Origin: Candidatus Ozemibacter sibiricus
Lineage (GTDB): Bacteria > Muiribacteriota > Ozemobacteria > Ozemobacterales > Ozemobacteraceae
Reading direction: 5' to 3'
Length of the DNA stretch: 64,000 nt
Assembly: GCA_003327425.1 (NCBI GenBank)
Contig: QOQW01000018.1
Location: 1-64,000 of the forward strand
Shown piece after piece: positions 44,301-59,600 of this stretch (positions are counted from its first letter, which is position 1; every line of letters begins with the position of its first letter). The notes under the pieces were generated by a model. That model was not told where the DNA came from. It saw only the letters and a list, made by a program, of their open reading frames with translations, and made no database searches. The translations under genes were made by a program, and so were the position numbers.

Positions 44301-44471
44301 CCCGGGGTGGGGCGTGCCGTTGGCCGTGGGGGGGCCTTCGAAGAAGACGAAGCGGGGCCCGTTCTCGCGGATCTTCATCGATTCCCAAAAGATGCGCTCC
44401 TTGGCCCAGAAGGCCAGGATGTCGTGTTCCCGCGCCGGGGAGACCTGGGTGGAGGGCTTGTCGAACAGCAT
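41322..44471 (-). CDS. ileS: isoleucyl-tRNA synthetase
   Basis: A class I synthetase of 1049 residues. The HIGH signature is PHPGHVLTKAMKD, KMSKS is intact (GIKMSKSKGNVLD), and GWDTHGLPVE and CWFDSGAM are present. The length and the C-terminus, without the usual C-terminal zinc finger, resemble the type with DUF5915 (eukaryote-like, often mupirocin-resistant). The editing domain is at about 190-400. It is preceded by AAGGA and lies 23 bases after the aldolase gene. Confidence 0.96.
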   Translation of the reverse strand: MLFDKPSTQVSPAREHDILAFWAKERIFWESMKIRENGPRFVFFEGPPTANGTPHPGHVLTKAMKDVVPRYKTMCGFHVGRKAGWDTHGLPVEIEVEKQLGIEGKQGIETYGVEKFIKKCRESVFKYEKEWRAMVERGGFWIDNDDPYITCTNEYIETVWWMLGRFWHEGLLYEGHKVVPYCPRCGTALSSHEVAQGYDEAEDPSVFVRFRLKGKPDTSFLVWTTTPWTLLSNVALAVGPDVEYVKVKVDGEYLIFAKARWEVLKGKGEIVESCRGIDLRGTEYEPLFTFAKADKKAHYVITGDFVSTEDGTGIVHIAPAFGEDDYRVGKENDLPVLQPVDLAGRFTDEVTPWKGRFVKDADPDIIAHLKQTGHLLYATTIKHTYPFCWRCDSPLLYYARHSWFIRTTAFKEQVLANNEKINWFPAHVKEGRFRNFLENMVDWAISRDRYWGTPLPIWKCRCGHHHLVDSIADLRRRAKSCPPDLELHKPYVDQIELTCEKCQGTMKRVPEVIDCWFDSGAMHTAQWHYPFENKEVFERNFPADFICEAIDQTRGWFYSLLVTSTFIHKAPAYKNVVVLGLICDKNGIKMSKSKGNVLDCMALFEKYGADAVRWALYSGTAPWNTRRFYEEGIAEAQSRFLGTLQNVYSFFVLYANLDSFNPRQHSLAPEQRSELDRWILSRYHRTIGEVRAAMDIFEITRATQALETLVDELSNWYVRRSRRRFWASGASTDKTAAFLTLYEVLTGIAKLAAPFTPFLTEDIWRNLVSRLDPQAPRSVHLADYPVVDEARLDPDLEKRMAFVMRVVSLGRAARNEANLKVRQPLSTMKILVQNDSERQTLEAMRDLIMDELNVKAIEPITEAGSLTRFVVKPNFRTIGQGPYKALIPKIKAHLETADGNAVQRALASGRYVFTIDGTEVALTANEVEVSSQASSDWIVQSEGGLTVALHKVLTRPLILEGLARELVNKIQNMRKEAGLEIADRIALGYRVEDAARQGDIAETLAVHGDYIKQETLARRLDPLTDPQAGTEWNINGIKVRLAITKEEGK

Positions 44472-44494
44472 GGGCAGCGTCCTTCGGTTGGGTG

Positions 44495-45067
44495 TCAGGA
44501 TGGCTGGCCGCGGGCCAGCGAGAGATGCAGGCAGAGGATGCGGGCAGAATGCTCGAGGCTGGTCGTCCAGTGCAGGCCGTCTTCCAGGGTGGAGCCGACG
44601 GCGAAGGTGCCGTGGCCGCGCACGACGACCAGAGGACAGGTGCGCAGCAGGGGAGCGACGACGGCGCCGACCTCTTCGGAGGCGATGGGGTTGCGCACGG
44701 CGACCACCGGCACGCCCTGCGGGAAATAGTAGGTGCCTTCGGCATCCACCGGCCGGATCCGATCGAGCGACAGGGACAGGGCGATGACGTGGGGCGGGTG
44801 GGCATGGACGATGGCGTCGTGGGCGGTGCCGCGGTAGATCGCGCGATGGACGGGGAGTTCGCGGGAGGCGCGGCGGGTTTCGGCATCGTCGTGGTCGAGG
44901 GCGGTCTCGACGATGTCGGCGTGGTCGAGGCGATGGAGCATGGCGCCGGTGCGGGTGATGGCGAGGGTGCGACCGAGGCGCACGCTCAGGTTGCCGGAAT
45001 GGGAGTTGTTGAGCCCGGCGGCGAACAGATCGGCCCCGGTCGTCTGGAAGGCGCGCAGGACGTTCAT
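44495..45067 (-). CDS. class II aldolase/adducin family protein (MtnB- or FucA-like)
   Basis: A 190-residue zinc aldolase-fold enzyme. The zinc ligands are seen in AIVHAHPPHV and RGHGTFAVG, the catalytic Glu in RELPVHRAIY, and the substrate loop in NNSHSGNLSVRLG. The gene overlaps mtnA by four bases (ATGA), so it most likely acts on methylthioribulose-1-phosphate or a related 5-deoxyribulose-1-phosphate. It could be a dehydratase (MtnB), or an aldolase that gives dihydroxyacetone phosphate, as in DHAP shunts. The later mtn genes are not in the window, which favours the latter slightly. Confidence 0.85.
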   Translation of the reverse strand: MNVLRAFQTTGADLFAAGLNNSHSGNLSVRLGRTLAITRTGAMLHRLDHADIVETALDHDDAETRRASRELPVHRAIYRGTAHDAIVHAHPPHVIALSLSLDRIRPVDAEGTYYFPQGVPVVAVRNPIASEEVGAVVAPLLRTCPLVVVRGHGTFAVGSTLEDGLHWTTSLEHSARILCLHLSLARGQPS

Positions 45068-46182
45068 GCGGCGGGCTCCGGCGGCCGGGGCGCCGGGCGG
45101 GGCTGCGGGCCGGCGCGCGTGGGCAGGCCGGCCATGCGCTCGCGGATGGCGGCGCCCAGCGGCGGCTTGAGGGCGCCGACGTTGGTGAAGATGGCGGTCA
45201 CCAGTTCGGGCGGAGTGACGTCGAAGGCGGGGTTGAAGACGGGCATGTCGATGGGAGCGGTCGGGCGGTCGCCGCAATGGCGCACTTCGTCGGGGTCGCG
45301 TTCCTCGATGACGATCTCGCGGCCGTGGGTCAGGGTCAGATCGAAGGTGGAGGCGGGAGCGGCCACGTAGAAGGGGATGCCATGGTAGCGAGCCAGCACG
45401 GCCAGCGGGTAGGTGCCGATCTTGTTGGCGACGAAGCCGTCGGCGGTGATGCGGTCGGCGCCGACCACCACGCCATGGATCCGGCCGGCGGCCATCAGAC
45501 TGCCGGCCATGTTGTCGCAGATCAGGGTGGCCTCGATGCCCTCTTCGCGCAGTTCCCAGGCGGTGAGGCGGGAGCCCTGCAGGAGCGGACGGGTCTCGTC
45601 GACGAAGACCCGGAAGCGCTTGCCTTGCTCCTTGGCGGCGCGGAACACGCCGAGGGCGGTGCCGTAGCCGGCGGTGGCGAGGGCCCCGGCGTTGCAGTGG
45701 GTGAGCCAGGTTTCGCCGTCCTTCAGGAAATCGGCGCCGCAGCGGCCGATGGCCCGGCACATGGCCAGGTCTTCCTCGAGGATGGTCTGCGCCTCCTGCA
45801 AGGCGCGCTGGCGGGCCAGGGCGAGCCGGTCGATGAAGCTGCCTTCCGTCAGCAGGGCGGTCTCGACCGTGGCTTCGAGTCGCTGCAGGGCCCAGAACAG
45901 GTTGACCGCGGTCGGCCGGGTCGATCGCAACAAGTCGAGCAGTTCGGGCCAGAAGGTCGAAAAGGCCTCTTCCGACCCCTGGAAGTTCCGCAGTCCGAGG
46001 AAGACGCCGAAGGCGGCGGCCACCCCGATGGCCGGGGCGCCACGGATCTGCATGCTCTTGATGGCATACGCGATCTCGCCTTCGGTGGCACACCGGAGCA
46101 TGATCTTTTCGAGGGGCAAGCGCGTCTGATCGAGCAGCTCGACCACCTCGAGGTGGGGGTTGTAGCGGATGGTCTCGAACAT
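45064..46182 (-). CDS. mtnA: methylthioribose-1-phosphate isomerase
   Basis: A 372-residue isomerase of the eIF2B-like family that converts methylthioribose-1-phosphate to the ribulose form. Motifs are SMQIRGAPAIGVAAAFG, LTHCNAGALATAGYGTALG, VDETRPLLQGSRLTAWEL, ICDNMAGSLM, VVGADRITADGFVANKIGT and FNPAFDVTPPELVTAI. It catalyses a step in salvage of 5'-methylthioadenosine or 5'-deoxyadenosine. The start is the ATG at 46182 (FETIRYNPH). The C-terminus is Pro/Arg-rich. It is the first gene of the operon with the aldolase, ileS and dnaN. Confidence 0.95.
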   Translation of the reverse strand: MFETIRYNPHLEVVELLDQTRLPLEKIMLRCATEGEIAYAIKSMQIRGAPAIGVAAAFGVFLGLRNFQGSEEAFSTFWPELLDLLRSTRPTAVNLFWALQRLEATVETALLTEGSFIDRLALARQRALQEAQTILEEDLAMCRAIGRCGADFLKDGETWLTHCNAGALATAGYGTALGVFRAAKEQGKRFRVFVDETRPLLQGSRLTAWELREEGIEATLICDNMAGSLMAAGRIHGVVVGADRITADGFVANKIGTYPLAVLARYHGIPFYVAAPASTFDLTLTHGREIVIEERDPDEVRHCGDRPTAPIDMPVFNPAFDVTPPELVTAIFTNVGALKPPLGAAIRERMAGLPTRAGPQPRPAPRPPEPAA

Positions 46183-46272
46183 TCGTTGATGTCTCGGCGG
46201 GCCGGACGAGCGGGGACCGGCTGGCACCAGACGGCTTCCGCCCGACCCGGTCTGCTCTGGTCAGGTCGGGGA

Positions 46273-46407: not shown

Positions 46408-47148
46408 TTACGGGGCGGGCGGGGCGTGGCTCAGATCGAGCACCTGCCCGCGGGAAGTGAACGAGACGCCCTGTTGATTGCGGGTACCGACCATGACCGA
46501 CTCGATGAGCGGCGGATTGGCGGGGCGGCCGGCCGACCAGCGCACGAGCACGCTGGCGCCCGCCCCGCCGGCGGTATCGGATTCGGGGATGACGAATCGC
46601 AGAGAGGCGAGCGGGGGCAGGCGGGTCGGCTGCTCGAGCAGGGTGCGCACCTTCCGGCCGTCGGTATCGAAGTAATCGGCGGCTTCGACCAGGATCGACT
46701 GGTGCGGGTCGGTATTGCGCACCATGACGGTCGCGGTCAGCAGGAAGGGGGCTAGGCGATCGCCGAAGTAGATATGCGAGTAGACGGCGACATAGACGGT
46801 CTGCCCGGTCGAGCGGACGGTCGGCTGGTTGCCGGGCTGAGTACCGGACTGAGGGGCGGGCGGGGTGATCGTGGCGAGAGGGCCGGCGGCCGGCTGGGTG
46901 AAGCCAGGGTGCTCGGCGACGGCGGGGGTGGCCAGCATCAGAAGCAGCAGGCCGAGCGAGACCATCCATGGGAGGCCTCGTCGTTTCCTGGGCCAGGATG
47001 CCGGCGCGAGCCGGGCCAGCCTTCCCGGCACGGGAAGGGGACCAGGAGGCGAGCGACCCAGATCGGTGGCGTCAGGAAGGTCGCCCAAGGGGGGATGCTG
47101 ATTCCCCTGGGTGGATCGTGGGGTGAGGCCCGCCATCGCGTGGTTCAT
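46408..47148 (-). CDS. DUF3124 family exported protein
   Basis: A 246-residue protein. A long N-terminal extension precedes the signal/anchor helix (MVSLGLLLLMLATPAVAEH, near residue 62-80). The DUF3124 core follows: TVYVAVYSHIYFGDR, TATVMVRNTDPHQSILV, YFDTDGRKV, and ends with ESVMVGTRNQQGVSFTSRGQ. The function of this family is unknown; it has a beta-sandwich look. The ATG at 47148 follows AAAGGAG. It lies about 100 bases after the large Hsp70 gene on the same strand and may be co-transcribed with it. Confidence 0.85.
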   Translation of the reverse strand: MNHAMAGLTPRSTQGNQHPPLGDLPDATDLGRSPPGPLPVPGRLARLAPASWPRKRRGLPWMVSLGLLLLMLATPAVAEHPGFTQPAAGPLATITPPAPQSGTQPGNQPTVRSTGQTVYVAVYSHIYFGDRLAPFLLTATVMVRNTDPHQSILVEAADYFDTDGRKVRTLLEQPTRLPPLASLRFVIPESDTAGGAGASVLVRWSAGRPANPPLIESVMVGTRNQQGVSFTSRGQVLDLSHAPPAP

Positions 47149-47247
47149 GGTTGAACTCCTTTCCGAGCACCGGGGTCGGCTGGTCTGACCCCATATCATC
47201 GGCGATCTGCTGGTGCCAGGGCTCAGAGAGCTTGCCCTCAGCCTGCT

Positions 47248-50115
47248 TCAGCCTGCTTCCGAAGGCGTGGCGACCGAGGGCGGGGCTGCGGCATCGGACG
47301 GTGCGAGACTGGCGAGATCTTGCACCCAGACGAAGCCGGAGGGAAGACTTTCGCCGCAGTACTGGGCGTAGTCGTCGGCCTGCAGGTCATGCGCTTCGAG
47401 GAGCGGCTCGAGGAACGCTTTCTTCTTCCCGGCTTTCTTGAACAGATCGATGATCTTCTTGCGCACGGCATCGTCGATGCGGACGAGACGATCGGAGGTC
47501 TTGCGACCCAGCTCGCGCAGGGCCCATTCCAGGTAGGAGCCGCCGCCGGTCGCGCTGCGGGACAGCAGGAACTCGGCCCACTGGGTGGCCACGGTCTGAT
47601 GGATGACATCGGTCGGCGAGCCATAGGCGAGCAGGCGGGCGCCGAGGCGGCCGACCGCGTAGAGAGCGACGGCGTCGCGGCCGAAGGTGAGGGGGGCTTT
47701 GAGGATCCACCAGCCCAGGCGTTCCTTTTCGGGCACGGGCAGCCGTTCGAGGTGGCCGAGCAGCCGCCAGAGGTGGTTGCGTTCGTGCTGATCGGGCTGG
47801 CGCTGCCCTTTCTCGGGGCGTTTGGGCGGGAACAGCAGCGGCTCGAGGCGGGCGAGGAGGGCGGCCTGGCGGTCGGCCGACAGGCCGGGGGCGAGGCGCT
47901 TCATCAGCAGCCACCATTCCCCCCAGAAGACGGGATGCTTCTCGGGAAGGGGGCCGGCGGCGAGGGCCCAGACCCGGTCGATGCGGGCGGGGTCGCCGGG
48001 CGCGCCGAACCCCGGGCGCAGGCAGAAGCCGAGCAGCCGGATCCACCAGATGAAGGATTCGTCGTGGTGGCGGAGGGCTTCTTCCTCGATGGCGAGGTCG
48101 AAGATGGCGCGCAGGGTTTCGAGGTTCCACTGTTCGCGGGGCTGGCCGACGATCTCGGCCAGATCTTTGAACAGGGTGGTGGCGGCGGCGGCATCGTCAC
48201 CACGGGCGGCGAGGGCGGCCAGCCGCTGGCGGAGCTGGCCTTGCTGACGTTTGGTCAAGGGCGCCTTGGCGCGGCCGCCCGTCTCTCTGGCCGGCGGTTC
48301 CGCCGCCTCTTGCGAAAGGTCGAAGGCCAGATCGCGCTGGAAGTCGGCGTCGGGGCCCACGCCCAGGCAGCGCAGCTGCAGGTAGCCGGTCTCGCGCAGC
48401 GTCGCCTCGAGGGAGACCTGCCGGACCGGGCTGCCGGGCTCGGCGGCCAGTCGCAGCGGCGGCAGCGGCAGATGGCGGCGGGGCGCATACTTGTACAGGC
48501 CGCCGAAAGTGTCGGTGCGGGGCGGGGCCGGCGAGTAGTAGAGGTAGAAGGCGGCGTCGCGGCTGAGGTCGAGGCCGAACGCCTTGTCGTCGACGACGTA
48601 GGGCTTCTCGGTGACGGCGCCCTTGGGCAGCACGCACAGCACGCGCTCGGGCAGGTGGCGCTGGGCGGTCGAGGCGGGGTCGGTGCCGATTCCGAGGTAG
48701 ATGGCGACGGGGTTGCCGCTGCGGATGCGGTGGCCCATGCCCAGGCCCACCATGCCGTAATAGACCGCCCCGGCGGCGACGGCCAGGGTCGGATGCGGAT
48801 TGACCAGTTCGCGCGGTTCGCCGCCGCCGCGCCATTCCCCCAGAATCTCGCGCAGCCGCCGCCGCAGCAGCGGGGCGATCATGGTGCCGCCGTTGAAGAG
48901 CACGGCTTCGGGCGGGGTGCCGTAGGGGGCCAGGAAGGCGGCGAGGTGGCGCGGCACGGCGGCGTCGCGGCAGTAGGGCAGGCCGGCTTCCGAGATGCCC
49001 AGCCCGGCGTCTTCGGCCGGGGTCGCGTCGGGCCCGCAACGGGGGAAGAAGCCTTCCACCAGCAGGGAGCGGATCTCGTCGCGGTCGATCTCGATGGTGA
49101 TGGCGCCGCCGATGACCCGGCTGCCGACGCCGGCCAGGGTGAAGCGGACCGTGCCCGGCTCGTCGTCGGCCAGGGCCTGCTCTTTGGCGGCGCGGCTCTG
49201 GCTGAGGAGGGCGAGCCATTGCTTGGCCTGCAGTTGGCGGCCTTTCTGGCGCAGGCGGTTCTCGACGAGGTGGGCGATGGCCAGGTCGAGGTTGTCGCCA
49301 CCGATCAGCAGGTGGGGGCCGACGGCGAGGCGTTCGAACGTGGGGGTGGCGGCGGCGGTGGGAGCGGGTTTGGCGCGGCGGCCTTCGTCGGGCCAGCCCA
49401 CTTCGATCAGGCTGAAGTCGGTGGTGCCGCCGCCGATGTCGATGACCAGCACCTTGCGTACGCCTTCCAGCTCGGTGCGCAGGGTCTCGGGGTGCCGGTA
49501 GAGGAAGTCGTAGAAGGCGGCCTGCGGCTCTTCGAGCAGGGTGACCCGGGCCAGCCCCGCCGCCTGGATGGCCTGGAGGGTGAGGTTGCGCGCCACCGGA
49601 TCGAACGAGGCCGGCACGGTGACGATGACCCGCTGGCGCAGGAAGCCCGCCGCCGGATCGTCGCGGGCCATCGTATAATCCCAGGCCCGGCGCAGGTGCT
49701 CGAGCAAGGCGGTGGTCGCCTGCACGGGCGAGAGGCGGCGAGCGACGCCCTCGCTCTGCCAGGGCAGAATCGCTGCCTGGCGATCGACCCGCGGATGGCA
49801 GAGCCACGATTTGGCGCTGTGGATCAGCCGTCCGGGAATCTCGAGGCCGAGGTCGCGCGCGTACTGGCCGAGCAGGTAGTCGGGGTGGGAATCCCACGGG
49901 AGGCTGGGGTTGGCGCTCGGCTCGTCATGCAGGAAGACCACCGACGGCAGGATGGTGCGCCCTTCGACTTGGTGAGCAGAGACGAGCTGAGGAATCGGAA
50001 AGGAGCGGATGCCCGCTCCCGGATCGCGCAGATCGAGGTAGGACAAGGCGGTCTGGGTGGTTCCCAGGTCGATTCCGATGATGAAGCGAGGCGTGCGATC
50101 CACGGTGGTGCTCAT
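47248..50115 (-). CDS. large Hsp70-like chaperone (C-terminal extension of the DUF3731 kind)
   Basis: A protein of about 955 residues. The N-terminal actin-like ATPase has IIGIDLGTTQTALSYLD, SAKSWLCHPRVDR, VTVPASFDPVARNLT, LLEEPQAAFYDFLY, and VLVIDIGGGTTDFSLIEVG (phosphate loops 1 and 2). The substrate part is atypical, without the classic DnaK lid; after about residue 600 there is a long helical region (QGQLRQRLAALAARGDD, AIEEEALRHHDESFIWWIRL). This C-terminal region is that of Hsp70s often annotated with DUF3731. It pairs with the shorter Hsp70 and DUF2760 to the right. The start is uncertain: ATG 50115 is used, with an in-frame ATG at 50133 as an alternative. Confidence 0.85.
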   Translation of the reverse strand: MSTTVDRTPRFIIGIDLGTTQTALSYLDLRDPGAGIRSFPIPQLVSAHQVEGRTILPSVVFLHDEPSANPSLPWDSHPDYLLGQYARDLGLEIPGRLIHSAKSWLCHPRVDRQAAILPWQSEGVARRLSPVQATTALLEHLRRAWDYTMARDDPAAGFLRQRVIVTVPASFDPVARNLTLQAIQAAGLARVTLLEEPQAAFYDFLYRHPETLRTELEGVRKVLVIDIGGGTTDFSLIEVGWPDEGRRAKPAPTAAATPTFERLAVGPHLLIGGDNLDLAIAHLVENRLRQKGRQLQAKQWLALLSQSRAAKEQALADDEPGTVRFTLAGVGSRVIGGAITIEIDRDEIRSLLVEGFFPRCGPDATPAEDAGLGISEAGLPYCRDAAVPRHLAAFLAPYGTPPEAVLFNGGTMIAPLLRRRLREILGEWRGGGEPRELVNPHPTLAVAAGAVYYGMVGLGMGHRIRSGNPVAIYLGIGTDPASTAQRHLPERVLCVLPKGAVTEKPYVVDDKAFGLDLSRDAAFYLYYSPAPPRTDTFGGLYKYAPRRHLPLPPLRLAAEPGSPVRQVSLEATLRETGYLQLRCLGVGPDADFQRDLAFDLSQEAAEPPARETGGRAKAPLTKRQQGQLRQRLAALAARGDDAAAATTLFKDLAEIVGQPREQWNLETLRAIFDLAIEEEALRHHDESFIWWIRLLGFCLRPGFGAPGDPARIDRVWALAAGPLPEKHPVFWGEWWLLMKRLAPGLSADRQAALLARLEPLLFPPKRPEKGQRQPDQHERNHLWRLLGHLERLPVPEKERLGWWILKAPLTFGRDAVALYAVGRLGARLLAYGSPTDVIHQTVATQWAEFLLSRSATGGGSYLEWALRELGRKTSDRLVRIDDAVRKKIIDLFKKAGKKKAFLEPLLEAHDLQADDYAQYCGESLPSGFVWVQDLASLAPSDAAAPPSVATPSEAG

Positions 50116-50467
50116 GACCTCAGGCGAACCCATCCTTTCCCAGCGAATGGCGGTGTGCGGGCCGGCCGTCGGACACCAGCCACAGGGCGACCAATCATGG
50201 CCCGTCCGGGCGAGCGACGATGGCGGCCCTCCGGCCCTCCGGCGGTCCACAGTATACTACGATCCGAGGCTGAGGAAGCATCGGCGGCCATCGAATCGGC
50301 AGGAGCGGGCGAGATTGGCCGGCCGCCGACAAGGATAGCGTCCTGGGGCATCTCCCTGTGAGGTCGTCGTTCTTCCGACCGTCTGGATGGCCAGGTCAAG
50401 CTGCGGTCGAAGAAGGTGGGCAGGCTGCTCAATGTTCTCGACGCTCCCCTACATGCCGCCAGATTCG

Positions 50468-50492
50468 AAAAAAAACACCCCTGGGAAAGGGG
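50468..50492 (-). terminator. weak terminator-like structure
   Basis: On the minus strand a 5-bp stem (CCCCT/AGGGG) is followed by TG and eight Ts. No minus-strand gene lies immediately upstream, so it may stop antisense transcription into the Hsp70 promoter region. Confidence 0.35.
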
Positions 50493-50513
50493 GGGAGGGC
50501 AGGTTGATTGGGG

Positions 50514-50519
50514 TATAAT
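50514..50519 (+). promoter_or_regulatory. -10 box of the secreted protease-like gene
   Basis: TATAAT preceded by TTGATTGGGG; no good -35 at 16-18 bases. The expected start is about 25 bases before the ATG, which has GAGGGAGCGG upstream. Confidence 0.5.
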
Positions 50520-50550
50520 GGTGATGAACCCATCGCGATAGAGGGAGCGG

Positions 50551-51324
50551 ATGATGAAGCAGGACAAGATTCCGGGCATTTCACCGAGATGTCGGTATCG
50601 AGCAGCCCTTCAGGCCGGTCTGCTCATGCTGGTGGCCTGGTTGATCGGGCTGACTCCGGCCTGGGGTGAATCGGGGCCCCGCTTCAACCCAGCCGCAGAG
50701 AGTCGTTCTGGCCCCGCTGCCTCTGAGGAACGAGGATCGACCCCGGCTCTGGCGGCCGAGCGGCCGAGCGATTCGTCCGCCACACCTTCGCGCAGCGACC
50801 CGCCAGCCGGGTTTCCCCGCGCGGCTCTTCCGATTCTGCGTGAGTTCGTGAAATTCCGGGCCGCGTTGCAACCGGCCGATCTGTCGGCCGGCAGTTGCGT
50901 GAAGAACGCGACCGATTTCTATTCCCGACTGCTCGAGGCCAAGCTCGATACGAGCGCGGTGCGCATCGTGCTGCTGGTGCGCGAGCCCAATCGGGGCATG
51001 CCCAACCCGATCGTGCCCGACCCGGCGTGGGTCCGCGGAGAGCCGGTCAAATTCTGGATCTGGCATGCCTTCGTGATCGCCCACGGCTGGGTCTTCGATC
51101 CGAATTATCGCAAGGCGACGGCCCCCTTGGAAACGTATTTCCAGACCTTGTGGGGAAAAGATCCGGCGCGTGATCAGTTCTGGGTTTTCGCGGTCCAGCT
51201 GCAGGATTTCCCGCAGATCGCGGGCAGCGACTATCCAGGAGGGCCGCCACGCATGCTGCGGTTCGTTCCCATCACCTGGCGGCAACTGGTGGCCAACCCC
51301 CTCCACCGCACCCAGCGCCGCTGA
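50551..51324 (+). CDS. secreted transglutaminase-like cysteine protease candidate
   Basis: A 257-residue exported protein. A signal peptide covers residues 1-40 (LQAGLLMLVAWLIGLTPAWG). A Ser/Pro/Ala/Glu-rich linker leads to a domain at about 90-250 with SAGSCVKNATDFYSRLLEAK, then KFWIWHAFVIAHGWVFDPNY. The order Cys, His, Asp fits the transglutaminase/BTLCP or NlpC-like papain fold, in which these three would be catalytic. The family is inferred from motifs only. It stands alone on the plus strand between the two Hsp70 genes. Confidence 0.68.
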   Translation: MMKQDKIPGISPRCRYRAALQAGLLMLVAWLIGLTPAWGESGPRFNPAAESRSGPAASEERGSTPALAAERPSDSSATPSRSDPPAGFPRAALPILREFVKFRAALQPADLSAGSCVKNATDFYSRLLEAKLDTSAVRIVLLVREPNRGMPNPIVPDPAWVRGEPVKFWIWHAFVIAHGWVFDPNYRKATAPLETYFQTLWGKDPARDQFWVFAVQLQDFPQIAGSDYPGGPPRMLRFVPITWRQLVANPLHRTQRR

Positions 51325-51667
51325 TTCGCGGCTGGCGCGAGCCTCCTTCCCTGCCGTCGCGTCTGGACGATCCGTCGGGGTTCTTCTGAGCCGGCCGCGT
51401 ATGGGCGGCCGGTGGCTGGCGTACGTCGGCTGATATCGACCGTTTCCGATCGATCCGCTTTTCGGGCTCGTGGATGGCCGGCGGTTTTACCAAAACCCGA
51501 GAGGCCAGCGCTCGTTGCCCGGTGCCTGATGGCTTTCCGATCGAACGCCCAAAGGGCTCGCCTGGGGTTTTGTTGATCGCCGGTAACGTCGCCGGGGGGA
51601 CGGGCGTAACGCAAACGAGATCGCGTACGGAAACATGAATCAACGCATGACAGACGGAGGTACGACC
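51325..51667. other. intergenic stretch between the two secreted-protein genes
   Basis: No gene or clear regulatory site is visible, apart from the GGAGGT ribosome-binding site of the next gene. Confidence 0.35.
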
Positions 51668-52582
51668 ATGTGGCGAGCCCGATCGAAGGAAGCGACCCCG
51701 AGGGTTCTGATGGCGATGGTTCTCAGCGTGCTGGTCCTGGCAGGGAATGTACAGGCCGGTCCGTTCAGCGATGAAGAGCCGGTCGCGGTGGGAGCGGCCG
51801 AAGAAGCGGCGGTTCCCGCCGCCGACCAGGCTGAATTCCAGGTGCAGGCTCCGCCTGCTCCCCCGGTGGTGCCGGCCGATCTCGAAGTCGAAGCGGCCGA
51901 CGTGCGTGACGAGGAAGAAGCGGTGGCTTTGGCGCCCAAAGAATCAGGTAAAAGCAAACCCATTCCGGCCTACGAACAGGCGGCCAGGAAGTATTTCGAA
52001 GAAGATCTGCGGGCCATGGGCATGCCCAGCATCCTGCATACGACCCAGGAAGGGTATTACAAGGCGATCGATGAAGCGGTGATCGGTTTCCCGGGCGGCG
52101 GGCTGTCGCATTCGCCGTTCGTCTACTATGGGCGCATGCGGCTCAGCAACTACGACTCCTGGACCTACAACCTGTACTACCGTCAGAAGCGGCTGTTCGA
52201 AGCCCACAAGAAATATCAGAAACTGGTCGAAGCCAATCGGACGAAGCGAATTCTCGGCGTCTTCGGCAGCACGATCGAGTCGGCCGGCCGGGAAGTCGCT
52301 GCCGAGCGGGCCCGGTTGCAGAAGGCCTGGGGGTATTTCAAGCCCGTGTATGAGCAGGCCAAGGCCCGGGTGGCCAACGCTTCGAAGGATCTGGCTCATT
52401 ACGAACCGCTGTACCAGGCGGCGCAGGAGAAACTGAAGGCGTTGGGGGAGAACAAGAACGACCCGCGCTATGCGATCGATGTTCAGCACAGCCTCGAGAC
52501 GATCAAAGAGCTGGGACCCAAGATCAAGGTCCGGCAGGCCATGGTGAGAGGGCTCGAAGGATTGAAGATCTTGTTCAACTGA
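51668..52582 (+). CDS. hypothetical secreted protein with helical C-terminus
   Basis: A 304-residue exported protein that I do not recognise. The start follows ACGGAGGTACGACC. A signal peptide is seen (VLMAMVLSVLVLAGNVQAG). An acidic Ala/Pro/Glu-rich linker (to about residue 95) precedes a domain with SPFVYYGRMRLSNYDSWTYN (aromatic strand-like) and then long charged helices (LVEANRTKRILGVFG, KAWGYFKPVYEQAKARVANA) that could form a coiled coil. It is on the plus strand, convergent with the short Hsp70; a perfect hairpin separates them. Confidence 0.68.
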   Translation: MWRARSKEATPRVLMAMVLSVLVLAGNVQAGPFSDEEPVAVGAAEEAAVPAADQAEFQVQAPPAPPVVPADLEVEAADVRDEEEAVALAPKESGKSKPIPAYEQAARKYFEEDLRAMGMPSILHTTQEGYYKAIDEAVIGFPGGGLSHSPFVYYGRMRLSNYDSWTYNLYYRQKRLFEAHKKYQKLVEANRTKRILGVFGSTIESAGREVAAERARLQKAWGYFKPVYEQAKARVANASKDLAHYEPLYQAAQEKLKALGENKNDPRYAIDVQHSLETIKELGPKIKVRQAMVRGLEGLKILFN

Positions 52583-52626
52583 CCACGCCCGGCGCCTGAT
52601 CTCCCGCAGGCGCCCGCGCCATTCCA

Positions 52627-52663
52627 AACCGCCCCCTCGAGGTAACCCCTCGAGGGGGCGGTT
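52627..52663. terminator. bidirectional terminator
   Basis: AACCGCCCCCTCGAGG (52627-52642), 5-nt loop, CCTCGAGGGGGCGGTT (52648-52663): a perfect 16-bp stem with TTTG-type tracts, between the convergent secreted-protein gene and the short Hsp70. Confidence 0.75.
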
Positions 52664-52702
52664 CGTTTGGGTGTGATTGCTTGCCTGGCTGCGTGAGCGC
52701 GG

Positions 52703-54490
52703 TCAGCGGATGGCGTCGCGGACGTTGAATTCGAGCTTCCAGCGGTGATCGCCGCCCTGCTGCCGGCACCAGATCTCGAGGGTGCCGATCTCGGTGATGG
52801 CGACCTGCAGGGTGACGTCGACGACGGTGCCGGGGGCCATGCCTTCCTGCGGGGGCAGTTCGCTGGTCAGGCTGCTGGTCTCTTCGACGTCGGGCGGGAT
52901 CTCGTCGAACAACTGGCCGACCTGGTCGTCGCGCCGGGCGTTCGACTTGAAGAATTTGAACTCGACGCGCTTGCCGACGACCAGGCCGAAAACGTGGCGC
53001 GGCACCTCGGTGACGGTGCCTTCCTCGGTGCCCATCCGGGCCAGGCAGAGGGCCTTGAGCGGCGGTTTGAGCCCAGGCACGGCGGGCAGCGAGCTTTCGA
53101 TGCCCAGGTAGTAGTTCTGGGAAATGCCGCCCCGGATGCGGATGCCCTTGCCCTGGCGGGCCATGCCGTACTGCACGGCGCCGGCCGAGACGGCCCGCAC
53201 CAGGTCGGCGCCTTCCAGCACGTTGAGCGGCTCGCGACCGGCCTCTTGCAGCCAACTATTGACCACTTCGACCAAGCGGTCCTGGAACCGTTTGGCCTGG
53301 AAGACCCCGCCGTTGAACAAGATGGCCTTGGGATACTGGTACTCGGGTTTGCCGGCCTGGGCGCGCAGGAAGGCGGCCAGATGCCGGGTGATCGCGGCAT
53401 CGGCGGCGTAGGCGAGATTGACCTCGCGGAAGCCGAGGGCGGGGTCTTCGCGGGGGCTGTCGGTGAAGGCGCAGGGCGGGAAGAAGCCGTCGACCAGCAG
53501 GTCTTCGATCTCCTGGCGTTCGAGCGACGATTTGACGGCGCCGCCGATGACGCTGCTGCCGCGTCCGGACACGACGATGGTCTCGCTCTTGCGCGCGGGG
53601 TCGGTGAACAGCAGTTCCTTGGCCCGGCGGCAGGCATGGCTGAGCGCCACCGTCTGCCAGGTGTCGATCTTCTTCTTGGCGGCTTCGAGCTTGCCCTTGA
53701 CGTGGAAGGCGAGGGCCAGGTCCATGTTGTCGCCGCCGAGCAGGATATGGTTGCCGACGGCGACGCGTTCGAGCGCCAGGTCGCCGTCTTGTTCGCTGAT
53801 CTCGATCAGGCTGAAGTCGGTGGTGCCGCCGCCGACGTCGACGACCAGCACGACATCGCCCTTCTTGACCTGCTCGCGCCAGGGGACGCGGGTCTGGCCG
53901 ATCCAGGAGTAGAAGGCGGCCTGCGGTTCCTCGAGCAGGATCACCTCGGGCAGGCCGGCCAGTCGCGCGGCTTCGACCGTCAGATCGCGGGCCACCGCGT
54001 CGAACGAGGCGGGGATGGTGATGATCACCATCTGGTTCTCGAGGCGCGCCTTGGGGAACTTCGCATTCCAGGCGAGGCGCAGGTGGGCCAGGTATTCGGC
54101 CTGCGCGTCGAGCGGCGAGATCTTCTGGACTTCGGGCGGAGCGTTCCAGGGCAGCAGCGGGGCCCGGCGATCGATGCGGGGGTGGCAGAGCCACGATTTG
54201 GCCGAGCTGACCAGCCGGGCCGGCACTTCGGCGCCGCGCTCGCGAGCATACTCGCCGACGATGAACGGGGCTTCGCGGGTCCAGGGGAGGGCGGGCTTCT
54301 CCTGCAGACGCTGGAACAGGAAGGATGGCAGCACCTCGCGTTCCTCGACGGCCCCCTTGGCGAACTCCTGCAGGATGGGGAAGGCGGTGACGGCCGGCTT
54401 CTCTTCTTCGAGACTGGCCACGGCGACGGAGTTGACGGTGATGTTGGTCGTGCCCAGATCGATGCCGACGATGTATTTGGGTTCGCTCAC
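52703..54490 (-). CDS. short Hsp70-family chaperone-like ATPase
   Basis: A 595-residue protein. The Hsp70/actin ATPase signatures are YIVGIDLGTTNITVNSVAVA, SSAKSWLCHPRIDRRAPLLP, IITIPASFDAVARDLT, LLEEPQAAFYSW, LVVDVGGGTTDFSLIEIS and ILLGGDNMDLALA. The C-terminus (about 490-595) is a short beta domain (VVDVTLQVAITEIGTLEIWC) instead of the full DnaK substrate domain and lid. It starts with GTG at 54490, preceded by GGAGGAACCCGCC. It follows the DUF2760 gene by 26 bases in the same operon as AOR and ferredoxin. Confidence 0.9.
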   Translation of the reverse strand: MSEPKYIVGIDLGTTNITVNSVAVASLEEEKPAVTAFPILQEFAKGAVEEREVLPSFLFQRLQEKPALPWTREAPFIVGEYARERGAEVPARLVSSAKSWLCHPRIDRRAPLLPWNAPPEVQKISPLDAQAEYLAHLRLAWNAKFPKARLENQMVIITIPASFDAVARDLTVEAARLAGLPEVILLEEPQAAFYSWIGQTRVPWREQVKKGDVVLVVDVGGGTTDFSLIEISEQDGDLALERVAVGNHILLGGDNMDLALAFHVKGKLEAAKKKIDTWQTVALSHACRRAKELLFTDPARKSETIVVSGRGSSVIGGAVKSSLERQEIEDLLVDGFFPPCAFTDSPREDPALGFREVNLAYAADAAITRHLAAFLRAQAGKPEYQYPKAILFNGGVFQAKRFQDRLVEVVNSWLQEAGREPLNVLEGADLVRAVSAGAVQYGMARQGKGIRIRGGISQNYYLGIESSLPAVPGLKPPLKALCLARMGTEEGTVTEVPRHVFGLVVGKRVEFKFFKSNARRDDQVGQLFDEIPPDVEETSSLTSELPPQEGMAPGTVVDVTLQVAITEIGTLEIWCRQQGGDHRWKLEFNVRDAIR

Positions 54491-54516
54491 GGCGGGTTCC
54501 TCCTTGGGGGTCTCGG

Positions 54517-55791
54517 TCAGGGGATCTCGACTTCGGCGGGGACGATGACATCGCCGGACCAGCCGGCGACCAGGGCGGGCAGTCGGCACTCCTTCAACCG
54601 CCAGCCTTTGTGGATCAGCGTGCCTTTGTACGGGCCGCGGGCGGGCACGTTGCCGGTCAGCTTGACCCGTTCGGGATCGACGGGGTCGCCCAGTTCGACG
54701 GTCTCGCCCTCGGGCAGGTTCAGCACGGGCGCGATGACCAGCCGGTCGGTGAGGAGCCGACGAAGTCCTTCGTGGATGGGGCGGATGGCCCCGCCCAGCT
54801 GGTCGTCATCGACGCCCGACAGGTCTTCGGCCAGGAAATCGAGCAGGCGCCCTTCTTTCTGGAGCAGATACAGGATCTGGAAGGCGGCATCAGGCGCGAC
54901 TCGCGCGGGAGCCTCGCCAGCCGGAGCGGTCGGCGCGGTCGGAGGGGCTGGGGCAGCCACGGTGGAGGGAGAAGCGGGCGCGGTGGCCGGCGCGGCGGTC
55001 GCTGCGGCGGGGGTGGCGGGCAGGGGCGGCGGGGCTTCCTCGCCCAGCGTGGGGGTCGGGCCGGGAGCGGTCGCCAGATCGGCCTCGGGTTTCCTGGCCA
55101 GCAGGGCTTCCCGTTCCTTGCGCTCGGCGGCGGCGGCGATGGCGCGGGATTCGGCCATGGCGGCCTCGGCGGCGGCCTGGGCCTGCATCGCGAGCTGGCG
55201 GGCCTCGGCCAGTTCGCGGGTGAGCTGGGCCAGTTCGCGCCGGGCCTGATCGCGTTCGGCCACGGCCAGCCGGTGCCGATCGGCCATCTCGATCAGTTCC
55301 TGATTCAGCTCGGTGCAGCGGTCCTGGGCCCGCTGGTAGTCGTTGATCAGGGTGCTGTCTTTCTCTTGGTAGGAGTGGAGTTCGTTGGTGACGTGGGCGA
55401 GCTGGGCCTCCAGCTCGGAGATGCGGGTCTGGGCGCGGGCCGCCTCGGCCTGGAAGGCGAGCTGACGGGCTTCTCCCTCCTCGATCTCGGCCTCCAGGTC
55501 TTTGATCTTCTGGCGGCCGTTCTCGATGGTGGCCAGCAGTTGCGGATCAGGCGGGGGCGGGGGCGGCGGCGGTGGCGGGAACAGCGTGTGCATGGCAGGG
55601 ATCAGAGCCGCCAACAGGAAGAGCGCGCCCCCGATCAACGCGACCTGCCAGAACTGGGGCAGCCAGAGCGAGACCTGCGCCCATTCGGCGAAGCATGGCC
55701 CGAGCGGCGAGATCTTCCAGAACTTGACGAGCAGGAAGGTGCCGGCCAGGATGCCCAGGATGGTGAGGAGTGCGGCCAGTCGTTTCAGCAT
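54517..55791 (-). CDS. DUF2760 membrane-anchored coiled-coil protein
   Basis: A 424-residue protein. Two N-terminal membrane helices (LAALLTILGILAGTFLLVKF and FWQVALIGGALFLLAALIPA) are followed by a polyproline stretch, a long coiled coil (about 85-225, repeated A/E/Q/R heptads) and a Pro/Ala linker. The C-terminal 120 residues are the DUF2760 domain (AAFQILYLLQKEGRLLDFLA, and later LPEGETVELGDPVDPE). DUF2760 proteins are commonly found next to a pair of Hsp70 homologues, as here. GAGGG precedes the ATG, and the gene begins 10 bases after the AOR stop. Confidence 0.88.
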   Translation of the reverse strand: MLKRLAALLTILGILAGTFLLVKFWKISPLGPCFAEWAQVSLWLPQFWQVALIGGALFLLAALIPAMHTLFPPPPPPPPPPDPQLLATIENGRQKIKDLEAEIEEGEARQLAFQAEAARAQTRISELEAQLAHVTNELHSYQEKDSTLINDYQRAQDRCTELNQELIEMADRHRLAVAERDQARRELAQLTRELAEARQLAMQAQAAAEAAMAESRAIAAAAERKEREALLARKPEADLATAPGPTPTLGEEAPPPLPATPAAATAAPATAPASPSTVAAPAPPTAPTAPAGEAPARVAPDAAFQILYLLQKEGRLLDFLAEDLSGVDDDQLGGAIRPIHEGLRRLLTDRLVIAPVLNLPEGETVELGDPVDPERVKLTGNVPARGPYKGTLIHKGWRLKECRLPALVAGWSGDVIVPAEVEIP

Positions 55792-55801
55792 CGGTTCCCT
55801 C

Positions 55802-57601
55802 TCAGCGCGGGTTCGGAATCGCCGACGGCGGCGCGTCGGCCACGTCGGCAGCGGCGGCCAGGTCGGCCCGGGCCAGATCGCGGTAGGCGGCCACCTGGCG
55901 GGCGAAGCGGGCGGGGTCGACCTGGCCGGCCCCGCTGACGACCCGGGCGAGCTTGCCGGGCAAGACGAGGTCGTCGAACCGGAAGCCGCACCGTTCTTTG
56001 TACTGGAGCTTGCGAGCGTGGGCGCGCCGGGCGGCCTCGTGCAGGCGGGTCTCGGTCCAGCCCGTGAGACCGAGGGCGTCGAGCCCCTCCAGGATGGCCT
56101 CCTTGGTATAGATGTTGCGGGCGAACAGGCAGATGACCAGAGAATTGAGGGTCATCCGCCAGAGGGCTTCCTTGTACAGCTCGGCGGTCAGCACGTCATC
56201 GGGTTTCGGCTCGTTGAGAGCCTTCTGATCGATGGCGTAGCCGGCGCTGTCGAGGTGGGAGTGGCGCACGCCCGTGGCATAGCCGAGGTAGGCATACAGG
56301 CCGGTCATGTAGCCGGGGGCTTCGTTGCCGCCGAAGGCGATGGCGCTGTCCTGGCCCCCGTATTTCCGGGCGCAGAAGGCGGCGCCCCGCTCGAGGTCGC
56401 GGTAGAATTCGTTGTGGCCGCGGGCGATGCGGTGCAGCACCTTCTCGCCAGTGGCGGCATCGCCGAAGTTCAGCACCAGGCCGTCGGTGTGGGCGGGCGT
56501 CAGGTGGCCGGCCTGGAAGGCGTCGATGGCCCAGGCCAGGGTGACGCCGATGCTCATGGCGTCCCAGCCTTGCTTCTCGATGAGCAGCAGCAGGCGCAGG
56601 ATCTCTTCGGGGCTGCTGATCGAGAGGTTGGACCCCAGGGCGTAGATCAGTTCGTGGTCGTACGAGATCTTGAAGGTCTTGAACTGGTGGTGCTCGGGGT
56701 GGAAGCGTTCGCGCAGGGTGGCCATGTGGATGCAACCGGTCTGGCAGTGGCCGCAGGCGAGATGCTGGGTCAGGTGGCGGGTGGCGAAGGTCTCGCCGCT
56801 GATCTCGTCGGCCCCTTCGAAGAAGCCCTGGGCGAAGTTGCGGGTGGGCAGGCTGTTGATGCGGCTGAGCGGCACGACGTTCATGGCGGTGCCGAGGTCG
56901 TGGTATTTCTTCATGGCCGGCGATTTGACCACCGCGTCGTAGAGCTTCTTGTAGAAGGCGTTGTATTTGCCCTTCTCGACGATGGGCCAGTAGCGGCCGC
57001 CCGAGACGACCAGCGCCTTGAGGTTCTTGCTGCCCATGACGCCGCCCAGGCCGAGCCGCCCGAAATGACGCGAGCTGTCGACGGTGGCGGCGGCGAGCGG
57101 GGAACGGCGCTCGCCGGCCGGGCCGATGCGGACGATCGACCGTTTGTAGCTGCTGGGCACGTGGTCGCGCAGGATGCGCTCGGCGGCCAGGGCCGAGCTT
57201 CCCCACAGCGAATGGGCGCGATGGAGGTGGACCTGGTCTTCGTCGATCGTGACGTAGCAGGGGAAGGGCGAGGCCCCACGCACCCGGATGACATGGAAGC
57301 CGGCGCCGTACATGGCCATGGCCAGCCGGCCGCCGGCGTGCGATTCGCCGAGGTTGCCGGTGAGGGGCGAGCGGAAGAGCGCGACCGTCTTGGTGGCCAC
57401 CGGGTAGACCGCGCTGAACGGCCCGGTGGCGAAGATGATCGGCGCCTCGGGGGCGTAGGGATCGAGGTCGGCGGGGGTGTCGAGCAGCAGGGAGGTGGCC
57501 ACCGCGGTGCCGCCCAGGTCGCGATCGAACTGCGCCGAGACGTCGGTGACCTGGTGGCGGCCGGTGGTGAGATCGATGTCGAGCATCTTGAACACAGGCA
57601 T
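55802..57601 (-). CDS. aldehyde:ferredoxin oxidoreductase-family tungsten/molybdenum enzyme
   Basis: A 599-residue AOR-superfamily enzyme that would carry a bis-pyranopterin W/Mo cofactor and one [4Fe-4S] cluster. Seen are FATGPFSAVYPVATKTVALF and MAMYGAGFHVIRVRG (N-terminal domain), GLGGVMGSKNLKALVV, the cluster ligands CGHCQTGC with a further Cys in SLVICLFARNIYT, and RINSLPTRNFAQGFF. The upstream gene encodes its electron-transfer partner. Substrates range from aldehydes to aromatic acyl-CoA systems; the YdhV and BamB branches are possible. The ATG is preceded by GAGGTG. Confidence 0.93.
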   Translation of the reverse strand: MPVFKMLDIDLTTGRHQVTDVSAQFDRDLGGTAVATSLLLDTPADLDPYAPEAPIIFATGPFSAVYPVATKTVALFRSPLTGNLGESHAGGRLAMAMYGAGFHVIRVRGASPFPCYVTIDEDQVHLHRAHSLWGSSALAAERILRDHVPSSYKRSIVRIGPAGERRSPLAAATVDSSRHFGRLGLGGVMGSKNLKALVVSGGRYWPIVEKGKYNAFYKKLYDAVVKSPAMKKYHDLGTAMNVVPLSRINSLPTRNFAQGFFEGADEISGETFATRHLTQHLACGHCQTGCIHMATLRERFHPEHHQFKTFKISYDHELIYALGSNLSISSPEEILRLLLLIEKQGWDAMSIGVTLAWAIDAFQAGHLTPAHTDGLVLNFGDAATGEKVLHRIARGHNEFYRDLERGAAFCARKYGGQDSAIAFGGNEAPGYMTGLYAYLGYATGVRHSHLDSAGYAIDQKALNEPKPDDVLTAELYKEALWRMTLNSLVICLFARNIYTKEAILEGLDALGLTGWTETRLHEAARRAHARKLQYKERCGFRFDDLVLPGKLARVVSGAGQVDPARFARQVAAYRDLARADLAAAADVADAPPSAIPNPR

Positions 57602-57605
57602 GGGT

Positions 57606-58025
57606 TCACCTCGTCGCGGCGGGGATGTCGACCATGGCGATCACGTCATTGGGGCAGAACTGGACGCAGACCCCGCACTGGCGGCAGACGATCGGCTGCT
57701 TCTGCTCGTGATCCCATTGGAGGGCTTCGGGAATGCAGGCCTCGGTGCAGGCGCCGCAGTGCGTGCACTTGGCGGAATCGAGGTCGACCCCGCCGCCGGG
57801 CCGCGGGGTGAGGGCGGCGGTCGGGCAGGCCCGCGCACAATCGGGGTCGGCGCAGCCGTAGCAGGGGCGGATCGAGAAGGCGCCCTCGACCCCGGCGTAG
57901 TTCTTGACCCGCAGCGCGGCCTTCTCGACGGTGATGGCCTTGTACCAGATGCGACTGCAGGCGAACATGCAGCTATAGCAGCCGATGCACTGTTCGCGGT
58001 TGATGACGCGCAGGAGTTTGCCCAC
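57606..58025 (-). CDS. four-cluster ferredoxin-like electron-transfer subunit
   Basis: A 139-residue protein with four [4Fe-4S] cysteine groups: CIGCYSCMFACS, CYGCADPDCARACP, CTHCGACTEACI, and CRQCGVCVQFCP. This is the YdhY/BamC-like arrangement that feeds AOR-type enzymes. It starts with GTG at 58025 after GGGAGG; the AOR gene starts four bases after its stop. Together they should form a redox complex. Confidence 0.92.
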   Translation of the reverse strand: MGKLLRVINREQCIGCYSCMFACSRIWYKAITVEKAALRVKNYAGVEGAFSIRPCYGCADPDCARACPTAALTPRPGGGVDLDSAKCTHCGACTEACIPEALQWDHEQKQPIVCRQCGVCVQFCPNDVIAMVDIPAATR

Positions 58026-58136: not shown

Positions 58137-58826
58137 TCAGCGGTTCAGGTCGCTCCACAACCGGGTCAATGGGGTGGAGGCCGGTACCAGGATCTCGCGG
58201 TAGATTTCGAGAGCCTTGGCCGGGCCGAGCGCGAACCGGAAGGCCCAGAATTCGATCGGGAAGAATCCGATCGGGTCGCGTCCTTCGATGACGACATGGG
58301 TTTCCGAGATGTCCAGGATCTTGGCCTGGAGATCCGTCATGCGTTCCTCGGTGAGCGGAGGCGGGTCGAGGGTCAGCTCTTGGACATGCGGACAGTCGCG
58401 GCTGCCGTCGGCCTTCTGCAGCCCGTAGAACCGGCAGGCGAAGGGCCGCACCGCGTGGATCACGCACTGGCGGGCCTCGTCGTCGCGGAAGGCGCAGCGC
58501 AGTCGGTTCTCGCCGCCGACGTCGGCGAGGCGCTGGTCGAGGCGCAGCACCCGCTTCAGCAGGGTGCGGATCAACGCCGGGTTCTGGCGCGCCATCAGGT
58601 CGCGGATGATGCGATGGTACTCGATGGAAGGGATCGATACGGCGTTGCAGCAGGCCCCGCAATCGCCGCATCTGGTGCGGGGCAGGTCGTTGTGCAGGGC
58701 ATCGAGCAACGGCAGGCCGAACATGCCGTACTCGGTCGAGGCGAGGAGGATCCGCTTCAGGTAGGCGCCGAAGTGCGCCTCGACGTCATCCATCAGGCGG
58801 GACAGCAGGGTCTGGTTCATGTCCAT
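58137..58826 (-). CDS. YkgJ-family cysteine-cluster protein
   Basis: A 229-residue protein with the YkgJ signature RCGDCGACCNAVSIPSIEY, further cysteines in RCAFRDDEARQCVIHAVRPFACRFY and a late CPH. The family may bind zinc or iron-sulfur. It starts at the ATG at 58826 with GGAGGAGG upstream; another ATG at 58820 is close by. It lies just beyond the ferredoxin-AOR operon on the same strand, about 110 bases away, and might help assemble its clusters, but this is inference. Confidence 0.85.
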   Translation of the reverse strand: MDMNQTLLSRLMDDVEAHFGAYLKRILLASTEYGMFGLPLLDALHNDLPRTRCGDCGACCNAVSIPSIEYHRIIRDLMARQNPALIRTLLKRVLRLDQRLADVGGENRLRCAFRDDEARQCVIHAVRPFACRFYGLQKADGSRDCPHVQELTLDPPPLTEERMTDLQAKILDISETHVVIEGRDPIGFFPIEFWAFRFALGPAKALEIYREILVPASTPLTRLWSDLNR

Positions 58827-59336
58827 GGGTGGCTGCCTCCTCCTGGAGCACGGAGCGCGCGTGATGAACTCCCCTTCATGTCCGAAGCCGACCTCTCGAG
58901 GCCGCGGCCAGCGGGCCGCCCTGTTGCGATCGGCCGCCGCGCGGAGCCGAGGTGGCGGGCGATGGCGGTGCCGCGCCGGCGGCCTGGCACGGACCGCGGG
59001 GCTTCCCGTCTTCGGCGCTTCGGGTCGGCATGGAACCTGGCCCGGCCACGAGAACGGTCTGGCGGTGTGGCCGCCATCAGGGGGTGGGCAGAACCGCGGC
59101 GCTGATCGCGGGTGGCGTTGGCGCCGAGGTCCGGAGCCGCCCTCGGGTGGCCCGAACGGCCACCACAAGGAACTGTGGCGGGGAGGGCAGCCGACGCGAA
59201 AGGTCGGTGGATAACACAACACCCCTCCCCCCGGTCAGGGGGGAGGGTGGCTTCAGCGTCCAAGGAACAACAACCGCCGATCAACCGCGAGGAAGCCGCG
59301 GGCGAACGGTGGCCGGGCGATCGGGGGGGAGAGGAA
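58827..59336. other. intergenic stretch with a terminator hairpin
   Basis: No gene is supported. CCCTCCCCCC (59223-59232), 5-nt loop, GGGGGGAGGG (59238-59247) is a perfect 10-bp stem about 90 bases beyond the RNA-binding protein gene and probably its terminator. The stretch between is GC-rich without clear coding bias. Confidence 0.45.
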
Positions 59337-59600
59337 TCAGGCGCGCTCGTTGCCCTGCGTCTTGGCCAGGTTGACGGTCAGGGGGCGCCCTTCCATCGGC
59401 TGGCCGTTCATTCCCTGGATCGCCGCTTCGGCGGCGGCCTGATCGGTGAATTCGACGAAGCCGTATCCACGGGAACGATTGGTGTGCTTGTCGGTGACCA
59501 CCCGCGCCGATTCGACGTTGCCGAATTTGGAGAATTCGGTCTTGAGCTTCTCATCGTTGACGGCGAAAGGCAGATTCCCAACAAAAACTTTCACGGACAT
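59337..59600 (-). CDS. RRM-type RNA-binding protein
   Basis: An 87-residue single-RRM protein of the bacterial Rbp/GRP-like type. RNP2 is VKVFVGNLPFAV and RNP1 is RGYGFVEF, with beta-alpha-beta spacing normal. It would bind single-stranded RNA, often as a cold-induced chaperone. A GGAGGT ribosome-binding site is present. There is no glycine-rich tail. Confidence 0.93.
   Translation of the reverse strand: MSVKVFVGNLPFAVNDEKLKTEFSKFGNVESARVVTDKHTNRSRGYGFVEFTDQAAAEAAIQGMNGQPMEGRPLTVNLAKTQGNERA

Follow-up and report, generated by a model that had tools for sequence, protein, structure and literature searches.

The prokaryotic Hsp70 types distinguished in a 2021 review are DnaK, HscA and HscC, all of which have J-protein partners; those of HscC are membrane anchored (PMC8215388). 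The aspartate of the J-domain HPD motif acts on R167 of Hsp70 and on its contacts D393 and D481 (PMC7289447). Here we analyse a locus in a 64,000-nucleotide stretch of the Candidatus Ozemibacter sibiricus genome (contig QOQW01000018.1, positions 1 to 64,000; hereafter the window) that encodes a short Hsp70 (HspS), a large Hsp70 (HspL), a DUF2760 protein and, in their neighbourhood, a polyferredoxin and an enzyme of the aldehyde:ferredoxin oxidoreductase (AOR) family. The reading we favour, with a probability of about 0.5, is that DUF2760, HspS and HspL would constitute a single, self-contained chaperone machine distributed over many bacterial phyla, for which the AOR is a possible, but not a dedicated, client. 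Among known systems, eukaryotes have Hsp70-Hsp110 pairs, and AOR family enzymes with a polyferredoxin partner include AorAB and WOR5/WOR5-S. In the open-access literature we found no paper naming DUF2760 or DUF3731, the C-terminal domain of HspL, and nothing relevant that links an AOR to an Hsp70 gene cluster.

HspS (596 aa; 52703-54493, minus strand) matches Pfam HSP70 (3.4e-17) and is composed of a nucleotide-binding domain (NBD) and a beta substrate domain. HspL (47248-50115, minus strand) combines HSP70 with a C-terminal DUF3731 domain (PF12531, 7.8e-52). With DnaK, which is served by DnaJ and GrpE, they share the NBD, the beta substrate domain and the ATPase residues, but R167, N170, the VLLLD linker and D393 are lost, HspS is lid-less, HspL carries DUF3731, and the score is approximately 57 bits against NCBIfam cut-offs of 648-822. 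HscA (with HscB) and HscC (with DjlB/DjlC) are likewise specialised additional Hsp70s with partners encoded nearby. They keep R167, N170 and D393 in our alignment and have J-proteins, whereas the partner encoded here is DUF2760; the NCBIfam HscA models score 84 bits (cut-off 620) and 79 bits (cut-off 708). E. coli YegD is similarly Hsp70-like and without R167 and N170, but it is 450 aa long, shows no substrate domain in the alignment and is unpaired. As in the eukaryotic Hsp70-Hsp110 pairs, two unequal Hsp70 relatives are associated and the larger has an extended C-terminus; there is no sequence evidence that HspL and Hsp110 share a common origin, and the likeness is one of architecture.

To compare individual residues, 147 sequences of HspS and HspL encoded at the loci described below were aligned with E. 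coli DnaK, HscA, HscC and YegD. The positions of DnaK D8, K70, E171, D194, T199 and D201 are kept in all 147. At the N170 position every sequence has Glu, and at T173 all except two have Gln (145/147). R167 is found in 8 of the 147 and is mostly replaced by Thr or Ser; the two Hsp70s of the window carry I/E and T/E at positions 167/170. The interdomain linker, read ungapped from the LSLGI / YYxG[IV] anchor, could be assessed in 117 cases. VLLLD is replaced by a mostly RGG-type sequence, and the position of D393 is never acidic (0/117). HspS proteins end right after the beta substrate domain, mostly at 586-632 aa, and are predicted to have no lid, while in HspL the DUF3731 domain appears to stand where the lid would be. 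Since the J-docking residues and the linker are lost while the ATPase residues are kept, we infer that the HspS/HspL pair would be a J-protein-independent Hsp70 machine. An initial reading of the window from its sequence alone (the sequence-only reading) had remarked that no J-domain is encoded nearby; the remark gains substance from Hsp70s that themselves lack the residues for J-domain docking.

The association of these Hsp70s with DUF2760 extends far beyond the window. A DUF2760 alignment was scanned against one genome per species (84,980 species), yielding 411 confirmed relatives, and our cross-phylum locus counts refer to the best 80 of these 411. HspS adjoins DUF2760 in 75 of the 80 loci and HspL follows in 53, in both cases across many phyla; the association exceeds chance and agrees with the earlier statement that DUF2760 often occurs with Hsp70 pairs. 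Five planctomycete records without this adjacency have HspS elsewhere in the genome, and four of them also carry a second, long Hsp70 of the same kind. Clustering of all neighbouring open reading frames (ORFs) gave no further recurrent partner beyond Betaproteobacteria. Within the phylum of the window, co-occurrence was counted in 40 genomes. DUF2760 is present in 30 and DUF3731 in 32 of them, and the two are jointly present or jointly absent in 36 (Fisher p 5e-5); each of the four genomes that differ is 75-78% complete.

Several variants of the arrangement were observed. In two genomes of one genus (g10), an insertion of approximately 0.8 kb separates DUF2760 from HspS (L044 2783-3560; L045 10066-10851). 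In outgroup families (L051, L053, L054), a short DUF2760 is followed by a tandem of two such Hsp70s, and the DUF3731 search of the phylum genomes did not find the domain in the outgroup genome G031. Downstream of HspS in a congener of the window (G016, L033 2645-13356), ORFs resemble Cas1, Cas2 and Cas3-like proteins by eye, and a repeat-like array lies where the contig ends.

The DUF2760 protein of the window (54517-55791, minus strand) contains the domain (PF10816) at residues 300-422, with an E-value of 1.4e-37 and 128.7 bits (gathering threshold 25). In the predicted model, two hydrophobic helices are joined by a coiled-coil helix of approximately 150 residues and a Pro/Ala-rich linker to the C-terminal DUF2760 domain, for which the predicted local distance difference test score (pLDDT) is mostly >90. 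The previous description of a membrane coiled-coil protein fits this model and the window's family, in which the long form is usual, but not other lineages, where the protein is short, lacks the coiled coil and has an N-terminal helical stretch followed by the domain. Predicted folds from two models match no solved PDB structure at useful Foldseek scores, and by sequence the DUF2760 profile matches solved structures only at E >0.7. A J-protein identity of DUF2760 was rejected, as the HPD motif is absent from all 70 DUF2760 sequences inspected. Co-occurrence with the Hsp70s and the topology of the protein suggest that DUF2760 is a recruiter or a tether.

In the window, DUF2760 and HspS are the last two genes of a tight head-to-tail run on the minus strand that starts with the ferredoxin (57606-58025, ORF open to 58040; four CxxCxxC-type motifs, Pfam Fer4 families) and the AOR (55802-57601). 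Genes and coordinates of this run were confirmed, the gene families by Pfam. Of the gaps of 4, 10 and 26 nt reported before, the first two stand and the third measures 23 nt. A clear AGGAGG is present upstream of HspS. A hairpin scan placed terminator-like sites of the minus strand only outside the run. Its genes follow one another on one strand at short distances and no strong hairpin interrupts them ahead of the HspS end, as expected of a single operon. An 18-bp hairpin at 52625-52665 (-44.4 kcal/mol, z -6.65), located between convergent gene ends, is a probable bidirectional terminator, although it is not followed by a strong T-run on the minus strand.

Because this hairpin and two plus-strand ORFs intervene, HspL is very probably a transcription unit separate from the HspS operon. 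The two ORFs, of 257 aa (50551-51324) and of 315 aa with a signal-like start (51635-52582), have no family match and are absent near DUF2760 in the relatives and in the 80 loci. HspL and a DUF3124 gene (46408-47199, minus strand; Pfam 1.4e-44) lie on the same strand, as originally described, but do not continue the run, and DUF3124 falls out of the set, as it was not near DUF2760 in any relative or in the 80 loci. In both congeners HspL is on a different contig than HspS (G016 C141, G017 C244). It adjoins mtnA in G016 and nearly adjoins it in the window. Within the genus of the window (g1), HspL seems to have become part of the mtnA-ileS block. The close placement of ileS and mtnA was observed in g1, g7, g8 and g11 (window 41322-46227; G016 C141:71883-76008). 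The mtnA match contains one in-frame stop codon in three genomes (G013 C363:21795, G026 C22:85141, G024 C41:250486).

The AOR is a clear member of its family. It matches AFOR_N (9.9e-57; 192.3 bits, gathering threshold 29.8) and AFOR_C (8.2e-50; 170.5 bits, gathering threshold 27), as well as the structure 1b25 (E 9.9e-53), in which CPYCNMPC aligns with CGHCQTGC of the window's enzyme, corresponding to the CxxCxxxC [4Fe-4S] motif. The ferredoxin-AOR gene pair, the AFOR domains and this motif are the same as in AorAB and WOR5/WOR5-S, and no difference is apparent in the window's enzyme. In most genomes of g11, the genes between AOR and DUF2760 encode TupA/TupB-like tungstate transport proteins, an ABC ATPase, a glutathione peroxidase and a secreted ankyrin-repeat protein (L038 11107-16500 in G022; also L035, L036 and L039). 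TupA (8.1e-65) and TupB (2.4e-51) both fall under their strict cut-offs. The TupA/TupB-like genes beside the g11 AOR favour tungsten as the likely metal of the enzyme.

Counting as this AOR any family protein with at least 54% identity to that of the window, 13 family genomes have both DUF2760 and AOR, and the two are within 8 kb in 12 of them; in the thirteenth (G011) they are on different contigs. AOR is directly adjacent to DUF2760 in g1 (three species), g2 and g8. In two of the three g1 species the arrangement spans contig ends, and the AOR contig carries the N-terminus of DUF2760. The distance is approximately 2 to 7.5 kb on the same strand in g11 and approximately 5 kb, with AOR inverted, in g7. 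The neighbourhood thus recurs in g1, g2, g7, g8 and g11 and is not peculiar to the window's genome. The ferredoxin adjoins the AOR in every relative with this AOR and enough flanking sequence. Upstream, a YkgJ-type CxxCxxCC metal-binding protein (58137-59222, minus strand; PF03692, 3.6e-8; its true start is probably internal to the called ORF) precedes the ferredoxin in g1, g3, g8 and g11, and an RRM RNA-binding protein (59337-59600, minus strand; RRM_1, 2.3e-26), a member of the conserved block of the family, is kept beside ykgJ in g3, g8, g9 and g11. In g9 the RRM-ykgJ pair is directly beside DUF2760 without AOR, which fits AOR loss from an ancestral neighbourhood. In the HspS tree the family forms two clades, and as both hold members with linked AOR and module, the family probably inherited the linkage from its ancestor.

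To judge whether the AOR is more than an old neighbour, we compared 200 kb around the module in two relatives (G022 and G012) and took ileS and mtnA as control genes. Hardly anything else of the 64-kb window persists in either 200-kb region, and the ileS orthologue is on a different contig than the module in 7/7 relatives tested. By these comparisons the ferredoxin-AOR/module block outlived its surroundings. It is nevertheless possible, if on the doubtful side, that ferredoxin-AOR and the Hsp70 module are long-standing neighbours which rearrangement has still to part and which share neither function nor regulation. The spacing of AOR and DUF2760 ranges between 10 nt and 7.5 kb and can include unrelated genes, the orientation is inverted in g7, AOR and module are apart in the sister genera of g11 as well as in G011, and RRM-ykgJ reaches DUF2760 in g9 without AOR. 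That small blocks can persist in this family is shown by ileS and mtnA, which stay together away from the module in g7, g8 and g11. Mere persistence accounts less well for a block that is almost the sole part of the window kept near the module, and for near-overlapping gene spacing in g1, g2 and g8. We read the AOR link as conserved, probably through shared regulation, and as one that may be functional.

A second explanation concerns the Hsp70s themselves. HspS and HspL could still rely on the housekeeping J-proteins and GrpE, encoded elsewhere, by means of an altered docking surface, which we consider rather unlikely. The window's genome does contain a canonical GrpE and further GrpE-domain ORFs, and 8 of the 147 Hsp70s keep R at position 167. 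The invariant Glu at position 170 and the never acidic linker position speak against such use, and so does the presence of the docking residues in E. coli HscA and HscC, both of which are served by J-partners. The four ORFs of the window's genome (G000) that match GrpE are at C5:148003, C35:229653, C55:32575 and C7:239563; one is canonical and two are in long ORFs (578 and 693 aa). The relatives are alike, hinting at several GrpE-bearing proteins in this genome and its relatives.

The sequence-only reading had gone further and proposed that DUF2760, as a membrane coiled-coil protein, may recruit both Hsp70s, perhaps for the maturation or protection of an oxygen-sensitive redox enzyme, here the putative tungsten AOR. 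Such a dedicated AOR chaperone would explain the tight operon in g1, g2 and g8 and a neighbourhood kept in 12/13 genomes though the wider gene order largely differs in the two 200-kb comparisons. However, seven family genomes have the module with no AOR match (G006, G008, G014, G015, G018, G019 and G020); as these relatives keep the module without it, AOR is not a required client. In other phyla, searched to 10 kb or the contig end, AOR is near DUF2760 in 1/80 loci (L134). The link is therefore more than chance within the family and does not hold outside it, and with the AOR link confined to one family, a dedicated AOR chaperone is clearly unlikely. As a general role for the Hsp70 pair, service to a redox enzyme finds no support, given the 79 loci with no AOR in that range and the seven family genomes with no AOR match. 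The single exception, a Deltaproteobacterium metagenome-assembled genome (L134 4985-11838), was treated as a coincidence and not as an independent link: its AOR is 24% identical, and ThiS/ThiF-like small genes and a gap of approximately 570 bp precede DUF2760. On one strand, this locus encodes the distant AOR, the ThiS/ThiF-like proteins, a DUF2760 with two hydrophobic stretches, HspS and a 292-aa HEAT-like protein.

That DUF2760 is a hidden, highly diverged GrpE-like nucleotide exchange factor is very improbable: its coiled coil, two helices and small beta domain give a similar layout, helices are followed by strands in both models, and the hhalign output shows a faint FDP...KGY/HGW...V.xAxV pattern, but the hhalign probability is 0.4-0.7%, and neither Pfam scans of 70 members nor Foldseek matches of either model contain GrpE.

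In the machine we favour, DUF2760, HspS and HspL would act together and run without J-proteins, with DUF2760 taking over client recruitment or ATPase control. HspL may be a regulatory partner of HspS, by analogy with Hsp110 and Hsp70. In the window's family, the hydrophobic helices and coiled coil of DUF2760 would tether the machine to the membrane, and ferredoxin-AOR shares the neighbourhood of the module, in three genera probably as an operon. This proximity would most likely allow the genes to be expressed together when the cell meets the same anaerobic or redox-stress conditions, and AOR may be one client among others. Several points weigh against this proposal. Arg is still present at position 167 in the 8 sequences mentioned above, and J-domains might dock on another Hsp70 surface. 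The putative binding of DUF2760 to the Hsp70s is deduced from co-occurrence, the comparison of HspL with Hsp110 from architecture, and the presumed co-expression of AOR and module from gene spacing. More tentatively, the complete picture would be a widespread J-protein-free Hsp70 system of lid-less and DUF3731-bearing Hsp70s, with DUF2760 in the part of the J-protein, that in one family is membrane-tethered and wired to a tungsten AOR.

The module is apparently an unstudied, widespread three-part Hsp70 machine, and as such a stronger lead than the AOR link. A pair of Hsp70s that keeps the ATPase without the J-docking network in many phyla raises the question of how an Hsp70 is driven without a J-protein. 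The set is compact, with three genes, and its cultivable carriers, Duganella and Massilia, make it accessible to testing. The AOR link matters less: it is a hint, specific to the lineage of the window, at a cellular setting in which the machine may work.

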